From the NCBI GenBank assembly GCA_030147925.1, contig JASBUK010000003.1, positions 1 through 43,857 of the forward strand: 43,857 nt of DNA, written 5' to 3'. The first letter of the stretch is position 1; each line of letters begins with the position of its first letter. Made by a program: the position numbers and the translations under genes. Shown here in pieces: positions 2,291 to 43,857 of the stretch. Origin of the DNA: Trueperaceae bacterium (GTDB lineage: Bacteria; Deinococcota; Deinococci; Deinococcales; Trueperaceae). Below the pieces are notes generated by a model, which was given only the letters and a program-made list of their open reading frames with translations, made no database searches and was not told the DNA's origin.

Positions 2291-2311
2291 TACACTGCCT
2301 TATACCCATTC

Positions 2312-2346
2312 CATTTAAAAGCCGAATTAACTTCGGCTTTTAAATG
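2312..2346. terminator. bidirectional hairpin between rplI and pyk
   Basis: A perfect 15-base-pair stem (2312-2326 with 2332-2346) around TTAAC has an A-run on its left arm and a T-run on its right. It can therefore terminate transcription from either side between the convergent rplI and pyk genes. It overlaps the left end of a dispersed repeat copy beginning at 2321. Confidence 0.75.
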
Positions 2347-2402
2347 CGAGTAGAATCAAACCGAGTGCCTTTCATAACGTTCAGGAATTAATCGGATTCA
2401 GT
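2321..2402 (+). repeat. dispersed intergenic repeat, short copy 1
   Basis: The stretch starts GCCGAATTAA and continues TAAATGCGAGTAGAATC, then AGGAATTAATCGGATTCAG. Both ends align with the ends of the 239-bp copy at 27520-27758; the middle of that copy is missing here. It lies about 40 bases from the 3' end of pyk. Confidence 0.7.
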
Positions 2403-2444
2403 ATTAGTAGATAATATCAGTAGGCAGTATCAGTTTGCCCAAAA

Positions 2445-13471: not shown

Positions 13472-13517
13472 AGCTAAAGAGCGTTTTGGTGTTTTTGACA
13501 ACTGTCAATAACATCCG
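13472..13517 (+). repeat. dispersed palindromic repeat module, copy A
   Basis: AGCTAAAGAGCGTTTTGGTG leads into TTGACAACTGTCAA (13495-13508). This is an imperfect version of the 28-bp palindrome seen at 27539-27566. Similarity to the other copies stops soon after 13517. It lies in the 388-base space between mdh and the CBS gene. That space also has the mdh terminator and an inverted repeat TGGAACT (13583-13589)/AGTTCCA (13601-13607), and no gene. Confidence 0.65.
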
Positions 13518-13752
13518 ATCTGGAGATTTACCTTCATAGAATTCCTTTTTGTTCCGATTTGCCTCATTTACTTCCCATGTCCTGGAACTAAAATGAAAAC
13601 AGTTCCACGGCAATGTAGTATGACGTTCCCATAACAGAAAAGAGCGGCTTTGTCTACCTAGGGATTCTTGAGGATTTTGAGTAAGGAGGTGGTGAAGTAG
13701 CAAATTCGCACATAGACTTCAGTCGTAAGAATGTTTGTGCAGGAGGTGAATA

Positions 13753-15360: not shown

Positions 15361-16218
15361 ATGAAAATTCTTCATCCTAGTGATTTTTCTAAGACAGCGG
15401 AAAAGGCGCGGCTTTTAGCTATCGATTTGCGTGGCCGTCTCAAAGCGGATTTGCATATAACCCATGTTCAGGAAAAATTTGAGGATGGCAACGCCCATCC
15501 TTACTTACTAGCCAGTAGAGATCAGCTAAGCCCGGAGCTGTTAAAACGTTTGGATGAGGAGCGTGCTGACGAAACCAGACGTTTGCGAGAACAGCTCGCG
15601 GCCATAACACCCAGTGGAGCCAGCCATGAGTTGCGTTGGGGGGGAGTCTTGAGTGAACTTTTGGAAATGTTGCCCGATCATGATTTAGTGGTTATGGGTG
15701 CTCACGGAGCCAATCGCCTTGATAACTTCTTTCTTGGTGGGACGGCTGGACGCTTGGTGCGCCGCAGCCCGGTACCGGTGCTTACGGTTCGTTCTGAAAG
15801 CGAATCGCAGCAGGTCAATAGAATCTTAGTCGCCACAGATTTTGGTCGGGCTTCGCGCTACGCCTGGGATTATTGCCGCAAGCTGGCCGAGTCGGGCATC
15901 AAGCTGACTGTCGCTCATGTGGTTGATAAGCCCTTGGGTTTATTGCGAACGGAAAGACCCAAGGAAAGTACGCAAGAAATCGTGAGTAAACTTGAGGCTT
16001 TGACAGATGACACCCCGGCCCAGCACGTTATTCGTGAGGGAGACCCGGTAAAGGTCTTACCGCAGATTGCGGCTGAGTTAGGAGCCGACGCGATAGCCAT
16101 TGGCATAGAACATCATTCGAGTGCTGTAGGCCTGCTCTTTGCTTCTCAGGCGGACGCGCTGCTGCGCTCGAGCCCGGTGCCGATTTTAAGTATTCCTTTT
16201 GAAGCCGATCAGGATTGA
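15361..16218 (+). CDS. tandem universal stress protein (UspA family)
   Basis: The 285-residue product consists of two Usp domains (about 1-145 and 150-282). The first starts MKILHPSDFSKTAEKARLLA. It carries the nucleotide-loop pattern VVMGAHGANRLDNFFLGG, followed by RRSPVPVLTVR, close to the ATP-binding consensus G-2x-G-9x-G. The second starts ILVATDFGRASRYAWDYCRK. Its loop reads IGIEHHSSAVG, so the second glycine is lost and ATP binding there is doubtful. Such proteins aid survival under stress by unclear mechanisms. The binding site AAGGGAAAGGGAG precedes the ATG. Placement after a PerR-like gene suggests, without proving, a shared stress theme. Confidence 0.9.
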   Translation: MKILHPSDFSKTAEKARLLAIDLRGRLKADLHITHVQEKFEDGNAHPYLLASRDQLSPELLKRLDEERADETRRLREQLAAITPSGASHELRWGGVLSELLEMLPDHDLVVMGAHGANRLDNFFLGGTAGRLVRRSPVPVLTVRSESESQQVNRILVATDFGRASRYAWDYCRKLAESGIKLTVAHVVDKPLGLLRTERPKESTQEIVSKLEALTDDTPAQHVIREGDPVKVLPQIAAELGADAIAIGIEHHSSAVGLLFASQADALLRSSPVPILSIPFEADQD

Positions 16219-16224
16219 GCCAAA

Positions 16225-16305
16225 GTGGCGAGGGCGATAGACTGCGAAGAATGAAAAGGGCAGCTTCTTAAATTGCTAGGGGGTAGGATTCGGTATTAGC
16301 AGAGA
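16225..16305 (+). repeat. dispersed intergenic repeat, degenerate copy
   Basis: GCGAGGGCGATAGACTGCGA, then GAAGAATGAAAAGGG and GGATTCGGTATTAGCAG, align with the right half of the 239-bp copy (27680-27765) with many substitutions. Like copy 1, it sits near the 3' end of a minus-strand gene. Confidence 0.5.
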
Positions 16306-16307
16306 GT

Positions 16308-16347
16308 GGTTAGTAGTTGGTAGGAAAATCTCTACTTACCACTAACC
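16308..16347. terminator. long hairpin between the convergent usp and permease genes
   Basis: A 16-position stem (16308-16323 with 16332-16347; two mismatches and one G-T pair) encloses GAAAATCT. It lies between convergent genes and probably ends transcription from both sides. Flanking T-runs are weak. Confidence 0.55.
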
Positions 16348-16363
16348 CCTTTCTACTTTCCAC

Positions 16364-18184
16364 TTAAAACGGGAAGATGAGCGGTACGACCAATACCGTA
16401 GCGATCATGATAAATAAGTGTAACAACACGCCCACTTTGAGAAAATCGGTAAATTTGTAATTGCCGGGGTTTAATACCAGGGCGTTTACTGGCGAGGCCA
16501 CCGGCGTAGCAAAGGCTGTTGAAGCAGCGATGGCTACGGTCATTAAGAGGGTTTGTGGGGAAACACCTAAATTAACAGCTACCTGAAAAGCAATGGGGGC
16601 AACTAGTACGGTGGTGGCAGTGTTGGAGATTACCTGCGAAAAGGCGGAAGTGAGCAAGAACAAAGCGATCATGATGACATAGGGGCCGGCGCCACCTAAG
16701 TTTGCGACCATGCTGTCAACAATCAATTGCATGCCGCCGGTTTTATCCAGGGCTGTAGCCAGGGGTAAGACCGCGGCAATAAGCACTACGCTTTCCCAAT
16801 TGATGCTGCGATAGGCTTCATCAGCGCTGAGGCTGCGGCTAACGACCATTGCTACGGCGGCCAATATTACCGCGGTGACGTTGGCTGTGATGCCGAAGGT
16901 CATCAGCGTAAGCATGCCGAGCAAAATTGCAATGGCCCAAGGGGCACGTTTTTTATTGAAGACTCTTTCACGCAGCTCTTCTGGTTCGGTGGCGACTATA
17001 AAGTTATGACTTTCGTCGCGCAGCAAGCTAAGCGCTTTGCGTCCACCGGCGACCAGCATGGTATCGCCTACGTTTAGCGGGGTGACGGAGGTGCCACTGG
17101 TGATGATTTCTCCGCCGCGCTTTTCGGCCAAGACGGTTACCCCGTACTTGTCGCGAAAACGAATGTCTCTAAGGTTTTTGCCAATAAAGCTCGAGCGGGG
17201 TGTCAGCAATACCTCGGCCATCAACACTGGCTTGGGTAAGCGCACTTTTTCCTGCTCCAAGAGCTTAAGCTGGGTCTCTGCAAGCAAGTGCTCGAGCGCT
17301 TCAGGTTTTGCCTTGACATAGAGAATGTCATCGGCGCGCAAAATGCTATCTGGTTCGGCACGTCTGGAATATTGTCCGCGAGGTCCCTGTGATTCAACGG
17401 CAATGGCATTTACCTGGTAGCGTCTGCGCAGCTTTGTTTCCGAAAGCTTTTTCCCTACCAACTGAGAATCGGCAGGCACCTGAATTTTAAACAGGCTTTT
17501 GTCAAGGCCGTAGGCCTCGCTTAACTCTCTAAGCGATAAGACCTCCTGATCGAGCTCGTCGGCAACACCTTTGCGCTTGGGCAAAAGATGCCGACCAATC
17601 AGAAGCATAAAGGCGATGCCTACCACAAGCATGGTAAGGCCAACGGGGGTAAAAGCAAAAAAGCCCAACGGTTCAAGACCTTGTGCACGCAACTGATCGC
17701 TCACCACAATGTTTGGGGGCGTGCCAATCAAGGTGATCATGCCTCCAAGTAACGAGGCAAAAGCCAGCGGAATAAGTAACTGTGAGGGACTTATCCTGTT
17801 GCGGCGTGCCAAACTGACCACTATGGGCAACATCACCGCCACGGTGCCGGTTGAACTCATAAAGGCCGACAAAAGCGCCGTTACCAACATCACGACCACC
17901 ATGAGGCGCACGAGATTGTTCCCGGCCACCTTGCCAAGCCAGTTGCCCATGGTGTCGGCGACACCTGTTTGGAAGATACCACCGCCAACCACGAAAAGCC
18001 CGGCAATCATCAGCACGATTGAACTGGAAAAACCGGCCAAAGCTTCTTTTGGCGTCAAAATACCGGTGAGTAACAGCGCTAACAGAGCTAGCATAGCGAT
18101 CAGATCAAGCCGGAAGCGATCACTGGCAAAGAGCAGAATAGTTGCTGCAAGAATAATAAAAACGAGAAGAATATCGATTGTCAT
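16364..18184 (-). CDS. SLC13/DASS-type permease with two TrkA-C domains
   Basis: The 606-residue membrane protein belongs to the CitT/SLC13 superfamily of sodium-coupled anion transporters (dicarboxylates, sulfate, phosphate). About five or six hydrophobic helices occupy residues 1-195, including IVLMIAGLFVVGGG and MITLIGTPPNIVVS, the conserved SNT/TPPN-like substrate loop. Residues about 205-400 form two TrkA-C (RCK_C) domains. A second helix block ends with ISNTATTVLVAPIA and ATPVASPVNALVL, again carrying the SNT motif. The architecture suggests ligand-gated transport. The substrate cannot be told. The start is ATG 18184 with a weak site AAGGTGATGG. Confidence 0.88.
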   Translation of the reverse strand: MTIDILLVFIILAATILLFASDRFRLDLIAMLALLALLLTGILTPKEALAGFSSSIVLMIAGLFVVGGGIFQTGVADTMGNWLGKVAGNNLVRLMVVVMLVTALLSAFMSSTGTVAVMLPIVVSLARRNRISPSQLLIPLAFASLLGGMITLIGTPPNIVVSDQLRAQGLEPLGFFAFTPVGLTMLVVGIAFMLLIGRHLLPKRKGVADELDQEVLSLRELSEAYGLDKSLFKIQVPADSQLVGKKLSETKLRRRYQVNAIAVESQGPRGQYSRRAEPDSILRADDILYVKAKPEALEHLLAETQLKLLEQEKVRLPKPVLMAEVLLTPRSSFIGKNLRDIRFRDKYGVTVLAEKRGGEIITSGTSVTPLNVGDTMLVAGGRKALSLLRDESHNFIVATEPEELRERVFNKKRAPWAIAILLGMLTLMTFGITANVTAVILAAVAMVVSRSLSADEAYRSINWESVVLIAAVLPLATALDKTGGMQLIVDSMVANLGGAGPYVIMIALFLLTSAFSQVISNTATTVLVAPIAFQVAVNLGVSPQTLLMTVAIAASTAFATPVASPVNALVLNPGNYKFTDFLKVGVLLHLFIMIATVLVVPLIFPF

Positions 18185-18513: not shown

Positions 18514-18528
18514 GCTTTTAGTGTTCAT

Positions 18529-18601
18529 ACCGAATAATCAATTCCTTAACGATTTTAAAGGCTACCCGTCTCGTTCTACTCGCATTTAGACGGAATCGGT
18601 A
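18529..18601 (-). repeat. dispersed intergenic repeat, short inverted copy
   Basis: Read on the minus strand it contains TAAATGCGAGTAGAA, identical to copy 1 (2341-2355) over 15 bases, then AAGGAATTGATTATTCGGT. Its ends are near-inverted repeats (ACCGAAT at 18529 and AATCGGT at 18595). The remaining 18602-18960 has no convincing gene; a short frame at 18649-18894 was rejected. Confidence 0.65.
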
Positions 18602-20831: not shown

Positions 20832-22481
20832 TTACAGGCCTGCAGCTTTAAAAGCTGCGCTGACGATAGCTTGGGCTTCACTCTGAATTTGCTTTAAATG
20901 ATCCGAACCTTTAAAGCTCTCGGCATAAATCTTATAAATCTCTTCGGTGCCTGAGGGTCTGGCGGCAAACCAGCCGTTTTCCGTAACCACTTTTAAACCG
21001 CCAATAGGCGCGTTATTACCAGGTGCATGTGTCAGTTTGGCGCTAATAGTTTCATCAGCAAGCTCAGTGGCGGAGATCATATCGGCTGAAAGATTGGCCA
21101 GGACGGCTTTTTGTTTGGTAGTGGCCGGGGCGTCCATGCGTTCATAGATCGGGCTACCAAATTGCTCTTCTAAAGCCCGGTAGTGCTCGCCGGGGTCAAG
21201 CTTGGTTTTGGCGGTGATCTCGGCGGCTAAGAGGTCTAAGATAAAGCCATCTTTGTCAGTCGTCCACACCGAGCCGTTCTGGCGCAGGAATGAGGCCCCG
21301 GCGCTTTCTTCTCCGCCAAAGCCATAGGAGCCGTCCAGGAGGCCGTCTACAAACCATTTGAAGCCGACGGGTACTTCGGCTAGTTTACGCCCTAAATGCT
21401 TGGCTACGCGGTCTATCATGGAGCTTGAGACCAGCGTTTTACCCACGGCAGCGTCTGCACGCCAACCCGGACGGTTCTGAAAGAGATAGTTGATGGCCAC
21501 GGCCAGATAGTGATTGGGGTTAAGCAGACCGCTGCTGCGTGTGACTATGCCGTGCCGGTCATAGTCGGGATCGTTGCCAAAAGCTATATCGAACTTATCC
21601 TTAAGCCCTATCAAACTGGCCATGGCATAGGGCGACGAACAATCCATGCGGATTTTGCCGTCTTTGTCAACCGTCATAAAAGAAAAGCTGGGATCTACAT
21701 AAGGATTGACCACTTCGAGCTCGAGCCCATAGCTCTCGGCAATCGGTTCCCAGAAGGCTATACCGGCGCCACCCAGGGGATCAACGCCGATCTTGAGCCC
21801 GGCGGCGGCAATGACCGACATGTCGATGACCTGGCCTAAATCCTTGACATAGGGCGTGACAAAATCGTATTCCTGTGTGCTGTCAGCTTTAAGCGCCCGC
21901 TCATAAGGAATTCGTTTGACTCCCGTTAAATTCTGCTTGAGGATTTCGTTGGCGCGATCTTCAATGGTTTTGGTGATTGCCGTATCGGCAGGGCCGCCGT
22001 TGGGGGGATTGTACTTAAAACCGCCGTCATCCGGTGGATTGTGCGAAGGAGTTATGACCACGCCATCGGCCAGCCCGGATGTTTTGCCCTGATTATAGCT
22101 CAAGATGGCGTGGGAGATAACCGGTGTGGGGGTGTAGCCGCCACCACGCTGAATCATCAGTTGAACGGCATTGGCGGCAAATACCTCGGTGGCGGTGACA
22201 AGCGCCGCTTCGGAGAGGGCGTGGGTGTCCATGCCCAAAAATAGCGGACCGCTTATGCCCTGGGAGAGCCGATATTCACAGATGGCCTGAGAAATAGCCA
22301 GGATATGATTTTCATTAAAAGAATTTTTTAGTGACGAACCCCGGTGGCCGGAGGTGCCAAAGCTGACTAGCTGAGCGGGATTTTGCGGGTCAGGTTTGTG
22401 ACTGTAGTAGGCGGTAAGCAGCCGAGGGATATTGACAAGAAGACTACGGGGGGCTGGCTTGCCGGCGAGTTCGCTGATCAT
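20832..22481 (-). CDS. pgm: phosphoglucomutase (alpha-D-glucose phosphate-specific)
   Basis: The enzyme interconverts glucose 1-phosphate and glucose 6-phosphate, linking glycolysis to glycogen and sugar-nucleotide synthesis. The 549-residue product matches the E. coli Pgm length. It contains [10 protein letters not shown] (41-50), the phosphoserine loop [12 protein letters not shown] with Ser146, the metal loop NDPDYDRHG, and the sugar-binding [15 protein letters not shown] 22481 is chosen because AGTGGAGG lies just upstream; a longer frame extends into repeat DNA and lacks support. It converges on the dehydratase with five bases between stops. Its leader contains palindromic repeat copy B. 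Confidence 0.96.
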
Positions 22482-22494
22482 AAAGAACCTCCAC

Positions 22495-22615
22495 TTAAAG
22501 AGCATTTCGGAATTTTGACAACTGTCAACAACACCCGAGTGGTACCGAAGTAGTCGAGGCTGACTACAAGTAGAAATAACGGCGGTCAGTTTACTCTCAA
22601 CAAGAGAGAAACGCT
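22495..22615 (+). repeat. dispersed palindromic repeat module, copy B
   Basis: It runs from TTAAAGAGCATTTCGG through TTGACAACTGTCAA (22515-22528), AACACCCG, GTAGTCGAG and GGTCAGTTT to GAGAAACG. It aligns throughout with 27528-27648. It lies directly upstream of the pgm ribosome-binding site. CACTTAA (22492-22498) and TTAAGTG (22650-22656) form a seven-base inverted pair around it, possibly by chance. Confidence 0.75.
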
Positions 22616-22670
22616 CTATAATGACAGCAGAATACCCCAGGGGCACAAATTAAGTGAAGTCGTTGGGCTG

Positions 22671-23710: not shown

Positions 23711-24197
23711 TTTCAGCCTCCTTGATTGCTTAAGCAAAAGATCTCAGCTATTACTTTGGATAAATAGCCTTGTTGCGAGCTCTTTATTAACCAGTATAAG
23801 GACTAATTTAATTGGTAAAAGTAGCACCATTGTCCAGGATGCTCTAGAGAATAAGAAAGATCGGTCGGTGGGAAAAGATTGAAGTTGCGACCGTTACTAG
23901 GTGCATAATGGATAAAAAGTTACTGAGTAGTGTAGCGGAGATAAATACTGAATAGCCCGATATTGACCGAGCTTTCTCCAATTCTTGTCCGCTAGCGTGT
24001 CAATTTCTTTTCAAGCGCGATAATCATGATTTTGGAGAGCTAAAGAGCGTTTTAGGCTTAAGCAAATATTTTATTAAGTTTTTCGGAATGTGCCCAACTT
24101 AGAGCCTTAAGGCCTTGAGTTAAAATTAAATTACTTTGATAGTTGTTTTGGCCATAGTTACACCGAATAAGCCTAAAGCAGTATTAGCCGGGGAAAA
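23711..24197. other. 487-base intergenic space with a repeat fragment
   Basis: No gene or tRNA is seen between the divergent thioredoxin-like and BatA-like genes. AGCTAAAGAGCGTTTT (24038-24053) matches repeat copy A (13472-13487) over 16 bases, suggesting a remnant. GCTTAAGC occurs at both 23728 and 24057. No strong promoter stands out. Confidence 0.45.
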
Positions 24198-27381: not shown

Positions 27382-27519
27382 GAACATACCTCCACTCTTT
27401 CACGACAATTATTGGCAAGCTCCATAGCAGAACGCCACATTTATGCAATGCCTTCAAAAAAGCATCATACCGCGTCTGTAGCCGCTGTCTAGCGCTGTTT
27501 ATATTGATTCCGTTGTAAA

Positions 27520-27758
27520 GCCGAATTAAAAGCGTTTCGGTGTTATTGACAATTGTCAATAACACCCGGGCAGCTACCGGCGTAGTCGAGACTGATTCCG
27601 AGAAGAAAATTAGGCAGTCAGTTCGCTGTCAACCAGAATGAAATGGACAATAATTTCAGCTTTAATAATGCGAGTGGGCTAGAACGCAGCGAGAACGATA
27701 GGCTGAGAAGAATCAAACGGTGTTTTTTATAATGCTTAAGGAATTAATCGGATTCGGC
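27520..27758 (+). mobile_element. 239-bp MITE-like repeat, longest copy (C)
   Basis: Its ends are the seven-base inverted repeats GCCGAAT (27520-27526) and ATTCGGC (27752-27758). The left half holds the 28-bp perfect palindrome (27539-27566) and matches copies A and B. The right half (from TAATGCGAG near 27666 to the end) matches the copies at 2341, 16225 and 18529. It lies one base after the pyrH stop codon, within an operon that is usually unbroken. It encodes no protein. Non-autonomous mobility is inferred from copy structure and position. Confidence 0.6.
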
Positions 27759-27759
27759 A

Positions 27760-29081
<1,322 letters not shown>

Positions 29082-43641: not shown

Positions 43642-43739
43642 GAGACCCGCAAAGAGCTTTCCTCGCTTAGCTGGCTTGCTCGAGCCCGCTGTTCTTGCCT
43701 TAGCTTGAGATAGTTAATACCGTAATTGCTAGTTGCCAT

Positions 43740-43800
43740 CCATAGGGATGACCGTTCAAACTGGTGTTGATTGACATCAAGTTTGGAGGAATCCCTATGG
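43740..43800 (+). repeat. inverted repeat sequestering a transposase start codon
   Basis: CCATAGGGAT (43740-43749) is the exact inverse of ATCCCTATGG (43791-43800), which contains the start codon ATG 43797. An inner CAAACT/AGTTTG pair extends the hairpin around the GGAGG site. Such structures often limit insertion-sequence transposase translation from outside transcripts. Confidence 0.6.
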
Positions 43801-43857
43801 ACGACAGCTTTATTGTAACGGCTTACTGCATTATCAGTGATACGCTCTCACAACTCG
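43797..43857 (+). CDS. transposase, N-terminal fragment cut by the window edge
   Basis: Only 20 codons are present (MDDSFIVTAYCIISDTLSQL). GGAGG lies six bases upstream. The pattern MDD-x-(F/I)-I-x-x-x-Y-C-x-x-(D/S)-D resembles the start of IS982- or IS4-type transposases of Deinococcus relatives. The family cannot be fixed from this length, nor the left end of the element seen with certainty. The space 43642-43739 has no gene. Confidence 0.5.
   Translation, partial: MDDSFIVTAYCIISDTLSQL

Follow-up and report, generated by a model that had tools for sequence, protein, structure and literature searches.

The repeat located between positions 27520 and 27758 of the DNA analyzed here (the window, a stretch of 43,857 nucleotides that forms contig C38 of a 2.98-Mb draft genome in 151 contigs) consists of two unrelated MITE families, A and B, one of which is inserted in the other. 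Very probably, both are families of non-autonomous DNA transposons that were moved by transposases, became amplified in this lineage, and ended up nested at 27499-27762. According to the list of open reading frames (ORFs), the window is filled by housekeeping genes. Since the PyrH-like protein encoded at 27760-28485 (minus strand) is 78% identical to its counterpart in a Trueperaceae MAG and about 70% identical to those of Thermus/Meiothermus, the host is a member of the Deinococcota near Trueperaceae.

When 27500-27780 was compared with the genome, at least 52 matches were found, which fell into two classes, covering roughly positions 25 to 160 or 150 to 267 of the query. Additionally, a copy on contig C135 matched positions 2 to 28 and then, directly, positions 154 to 219. 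Together, the two classes and this junction form the signature of an insertion. The same picture was obtained with profiles of the two families, copies having been collected by oriented alignments and iterated nhmmer searches of the DNA around the genome matches.

On the plus strand, the locus starts with the left target duplication of B, TTA (27499-27501), as defined by where it lies with respect to B's TAC(C) end and by the TNA rule derived from 33 copies. It continues with the left part of B (27502-27526; from alignment with other B copies), comprising the left terminal repeat TATTGATTCCG and the 5' arm of the AAAGCCGAA hairpin, and, in the loop of that hairpin, with the left TA duplication of A (27527-27528). 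The A element itself (27529-27650; 87% identity to the A consensus) has terminal inverted repeats AAAGCGTTTC and GAAATGGACAA and contains the palindrome TTATTGACAATTGTCAATAA at about 27543-27562. Directly following the right TA duplication (27651-27652), the right part of B (27653-27759) supplies the 3' arm of the hairpin, the body, and the right terminal repeat CGGATTCGGCA; on the basis of the sequence and the ORF list, the right target duplication of B reads TCA (27760-27762), where the left copy has TTA. Without A and one TA, the rejoined B aligns with other B copies (80 to 83% identity over 127 to 133 nt; E value, 4e-32), and its hairpin, GCCGAATTAATTTC(A/G)GC, is the same as in uninterrupted copies.

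The original prediction had described a single, two-halved element at 27520-27758 with termini GCCGAAT and ATTCGGC. These bounds proved to be misplaced, as B runs from 27502 to 27759, between target duplications that occupy 27499-27501 and 27760-27762. GCCGAAT forms one of the two arms of B's internal hairpin, and ATTCGGC is a piece of the right end of B with chance changes, most copies reading ATTCAGTA. The halves belong to independent families that differ in their ends and in their target duplications, and solitary copies of each lie in unrelated surroundings at dozens of sites. As for the order of events, we propose that B would have inserted first, where the pyrH-like gene has its stop codon, with a 3-bp duplication keeping the stop, and that A would have inserted later, at a TA in the loop of the B hairpin.

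Ends, hairpins, and copies of the two families

The pieces of the window that had been listed as related do match far beyond chance. The A profile scored 115 bits at 27529-27650 (E value, 8.6e-35), 90 bits at 22498-22619, and 35 bits at 13477-13522 (E value, 3e-10), and the B profile scored 89 bits at 2303-2404, 68 bits at 27648-27760, 30 bits at 16179-16296 (E value, 1e-8), and 29 bits at 18527-18583 (minus strand), versus maxima of 5.6 (A) and 8.2 (B) bits in 20 Markov-shuffled windows; since the profiles include the window copies, the scores are somewhat inflated. The copy at 2303-2403 (plus strand) is an uninterrupted B whose TTA duplications (2300-2302 and 2404-2406) are exact. The earlier description of this copy as internally deleted was correct insofar as about 33 bp of full-length B are missing from it, but its middle is mainly absent for another reason, namely, that no A is inserted there. 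On the minus strand, a 74-bp derivative of B (18528-18601) was read from the sequence as having kept both ends and lost the hairpin and the middle, and a fragment of the right part of B is found at 16225-16296 (plus strand); the first 40 bases of the longer match, starting at 16179, lie inside the preceding ORF. Adjoining this B copy is a short intergenic sequence (16300-16365; GTTAGTAGTTGGTAGGAAAA...CTTTCCACTT), possibly a third repeat family, and similar text occurs beside B on contigs C62, C125, and C135.

Besides the nested copy, the window contains a full-length A with TA duplications (22498-22619, plus strand) in the 5' region of an ORF at 20832-22646 (minus strand) and a left-end fragment of A (13477-13522, plus strand). 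The former is located upstream of a phosphoglucomutase-like gene and extends that ORF at the 5' side, and automatic annotation may place the start of the phosphoglucomutase-like protein inside the MITE. A 16-base fragment reported at 24038 was not confirmed: the A profile missed 24034-24049 (plus strand) even at an E value of 10, and this segment, which stems from the repeat comparison, may be a solo left end of A or a chance match.

Genome-wide, family A comprises at least 53 copies and fragments, 36 of them near full length, and family B at least 56, 33 of them near full length, all of these counts being lower bounds, with several copies at contig ends of the draft. Most A copies measure 121 to 126 bp, with a range of 100 to 126 bp for most near-full copies and a deletion form of 102 bp, from which about 22 bp are missing. 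Their ends read TA-AAGAGCGTTTC ... GAAACGGACTA-TA, with imperfect terminal inverted repeats ([AT]AG--CGTTTC at each end), and TA was found on both sides in 25 of the 36 near-full copies, most of the others being one substitution off. Short, noncoding, and multicopy, with terminal inverted repeats, a TA duplication, and empty sites that could be rebuilt, A has the properties of a MITE. It carries a 13-bp palindrome (TTGACA..TGTCAA) and folds more stably than its shuffled versions (z, -4.3). Stem pairing is kept in 92% of cells, with a GC/UA exchange at one pair in 10 of 32 copies; the relatedness of the copies limits what such conservation proves, for A as well as for B. A promoter at the right end of A (CTGTCA-17-TATA) is not claimed, as the downstream genes are without orientation bias.

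In two A copies (C105:30490-30661 and C49:9809-9954), an internal segment, CTGCCGACGTAGTCGAGACTGA, is duplicated in tandem, and at C71:21929-22094, a rearranged A end and a left end of B surround unrelated DNA, forming a composite. An A end on contig C129 was rejected as a separate element; it lies at a contig end, and its flank is the same as that of the copy at C53:49-149.

Family B measures about 130 to 137 bp (near-full range, 100 to 137 bp), next to a form of about 110 bp that lacks 24 bp. Its ends are TACCGATTCCG and CGGATTCAGTA (the right end was also noted as TACTGAATCCG); with flanks, copies read TNA-TACC(G/C)ATTCCG ... CGGATTCAGTA-TNA. The left flank was TNA in 28 of 33 copies, and an identical 3-nt pair (TTA, TAA, or TGA) was present in 20 of 33. 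B, too, has the properties of a MITE, being short, noncoding, and multicopy, with terminal inverted repeats and a TNA duplication. Its terminator-like AAAAGCCGAA..TTCGGCTTTT hairpin, predicted to have the form of a bidirectional terminator, keeps its pairing in 91% of cells, and the fold is moderately better than those of shuffled versions (z, -2.2). Some loop sequences were found in both orientations (GAATTAACTTC/GAAGTTAATTC and ATCCTAT/ATAGGAT), which is consistent with hairpin inversion. A B subfamily at C14:5494, C53:12420, and C105:42053 has GGCCTAAGCTTGCT in place of the sequence that flanks the hairpin on its 3' side, a rearrangement common to all three.

In both families, the median identity between pairs of copies is 79% and the best pairs reach 97%, which indicates that amplification extended over some time and was not solely a recent event. 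The copies are diverged, and current activity would not be implied.

Genomic location and target sites

Among the scored pieces with flanking genes, 40 of 45 A and 40 of 42 B pieces lie outside long ORFs (by approximate ORF calls), even though about 80% of the surrounding DNA that was analyzed is ORF. The earlier suggestion of a large, genome-wide, noncoding, intergenic, MITE-like family was right in each of these attributes, except that there are two families instead of one. In both, convergent gene contexts outnumber divergent ones (11 versus 4 and 14 versus 6), as might be expected of RNA or DNA regulatory modules that spread mainly by selection, with the role of bidirectional terminator for B and of operator or RNA hairpin for A. 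The A/T tracts on both sides of the B hairpin and the palindrome of A would fit such modules, as would pairing that is above that in all or nearly all column shuffles. However, insertion is evident from the target duplications and from the precision of the nests. Moreover, double-sided changes occur in no more than two or three pairs, and a single event passed on to later copies can account for the main one; the neighboring genes have no uniform orientation, and neither repeat is in Rfam. We consider a spread by selection very improbable; as transposed elements, A and B would rather represent neutral insertions.

Several insertions are found close to stop codons. Seven left ends and two right ends of A lie within a few bases of a stop, and in three exact cases (on contigs C81, C87, and C145) A is located at the TA of a TAA or TAG stop, which is preserved because the next base of the element after the duplicated TA completes it. 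Similarly, the right TNA of B in the window (TCA) reads TGA on the minus strand, where it is the stop that ends the pyrH-like gene, and the TGA duplication of B restores the stop there, at C125:20561, and on contig C122. The pyrH-frr spacer measures 372 bp here, versus roughly 10 to 100 bp in seven relatives, in which it is without A or B. As for hairpins, 4 of 26 A sites had strong hairpin loops versus 0.5 expected, and A may even favor TA in such loops; nevertheless, despite this excess in the tail, there was no overall shift (Mann-Whitney P value, 0.31), and targeting of hairpin loops is not claimed. It is tempting, if rather unlikely, that A and B share a host-sparing target ecology, directed at terminator loops and stop codons, with ends and duplications that rebuild the stop. 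If true, such a preference would bear on the high copy number of MITEs in compact genomes.

Mobilization and mutual insertion

In each family, terminal inverted repeats enclose noncoding DNA that contains a strong hairpin or palindrome, and each would presumably be moved in trans by a DDE transposase that recognizes its ends. TA duplication is typical of users of IS630/Tc1-mariner transposases, and TNA duplication is typical of users of IS1031-type IS5 transposases. By analogy, A would insert at TA as do IS630/Tc1-mariner elements or those IS5-family members that duplicate TA, and B, possibly of the IS5/IS1031 type, would use TNA sites as the IS1031 group of that family does. Since the searches brought up no autonomous relative that shares the ends, we only infer mobilization in trans. 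The draft genome gave no match to the IS630-type DDE domain (PF13358) from which a derivation of A could be argued, none of the 21 DDE_Tnp_1 (PF01609) loci found, several of which are cut by contig ends, is flanked by A or B ends, and the ends of its IS5-like transposases differ from those of B, which offers no sign that B derives from IS5/IS1031. In a draft assembly, failure to find a transposase with A or B ends is no proof of absence.

The original prediction had pointed to an IS at 43.8 kb as a possible source of a transposase with matching ends. At 43710-43857, the window indeed includes the left end of a multicopy IS, which we take to be IS982-like, with terminal inverted repeat TACCGTAATTGCTAG... 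and an ORF starting MDDSFIVTAYCIISDTLSQL. The same IS is present on contigs C14 and C134 and, with a different inner part, on C65 and C87, cut by contig ends. Its start shares TACCG with B, and several IS are broken at contig ends; A and B might therefore be parts of this IS or of an unassembled autonomous transposon. We give this reading scarcely any credence, since the likeness stops after TACCG and the flanks of its single ends, compared at six sites, do not consistently read TNA. Among the other transposases found in the genome, too, none has matching ends. An A-like contig end (C94:21789-21939) that could have belonged to a longer autonomous element turned out to be an A copy interrupted in its right part by a different multicopy IS. 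The latter, starting CAGGAATGTTCCC, occurs in five further places, on contigs C93, C7, C81, C11, and C39, and the copy on C39 is near a DDE_5/IS701-like ORF.

Further nests are present elsewhere in the genome. On contig C122, the loop TA of a second B is occupied by an independent A that has the opposite orientation; once this A is removed, the interrupted copy aligns with other B copies at an E value of 5e-32. Reciprocally, at C71:29386-29622, a B with TGA duplication lies inside an A (E value for A minus B, 3e-21), and on contig C108, A is located in the TTA duplication of a B. A and B have thus inserted into each other; given their copy numbers and common intergenic location, no excess of mutual insertion is claimed. 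A single composite MITE family, with the 239-bp copy as its full-length form and the others as internal-deletion derivatives, would account for the adjacent halves at 27520-27758 and for the deletion derivatives that do occur inside each family, but full-length A and full-length B, standing apart at dozens of loci with ends and target duplications of their own (TA versus TNA), refute it, as do the occurrence of A inside B in both orientations and of B inside A, leaving it practically no probability.

Distribution and relation to known systems

Searches in relatives yielded no match for B in 60 other genomes and no match of substance for A in 100 other genomes. With one mismatch allowed, the end motifs occur 29 (A) and 27 (B) times in this genome and not once in 110 other Deinococcota genomes from other genera. 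Short A matches in three relatives (L213 to L215), with E values of 4e-4 to 5e-3 over 101 genomes, were judged to be due to chance, and a 32-nt A match on a Rhizobium etli plasmid was rejected, as it lies inside a long, transhydrogenase-like ORF. There was no match for B among plasmids, none for the core of the A palindrome in viral contigs, and none for either repeat in Rfam. A and B appear to be new to the collections searched, while their kind is already known.

The terminal repeat of Correia elements is TATAGTGGATTAAC; the ends found here differ from it, and the host belongs to the Deinococcota, not to Neisseria, which argues against membership in Correia/NEMIS. Nor was any IS5-type transposase with B ends found, although B duplicates TNA, as do IS5 elements of the IS1031 group. 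In form, A does match both Correia/NEMIS of Neisseria and RUP of Streptococcus pneumoniae, for which no relation in sequence was seen: these are noncoding, mainly intergenic elements of 100 to 200 bp with terminal inverted repeats, TA at the termini, target duplications, and stable stem-loops, and Correia elements come in long as well as short versions (PMC2229807). For RUP, IS630-Spn1 has been proposed as the partner (PMC2229807), whereas none was found for A in this genome. Within the same phylum, Deinococcus radiodurans has 295 small noncoding repeats (SNRs), which belong to at least nine types and are short, mosaic, and absent from a congener (PMC1978522). By description, nested A and B would look mosaic as well. 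Two MITE families are thus documented in a lineage of a phylum already known for mosaic small repeats, and their reciprocal nesting shows how two simple families can yield "mosaic" repeats; intergenic repeats are best split by target duplication before they are called one family.
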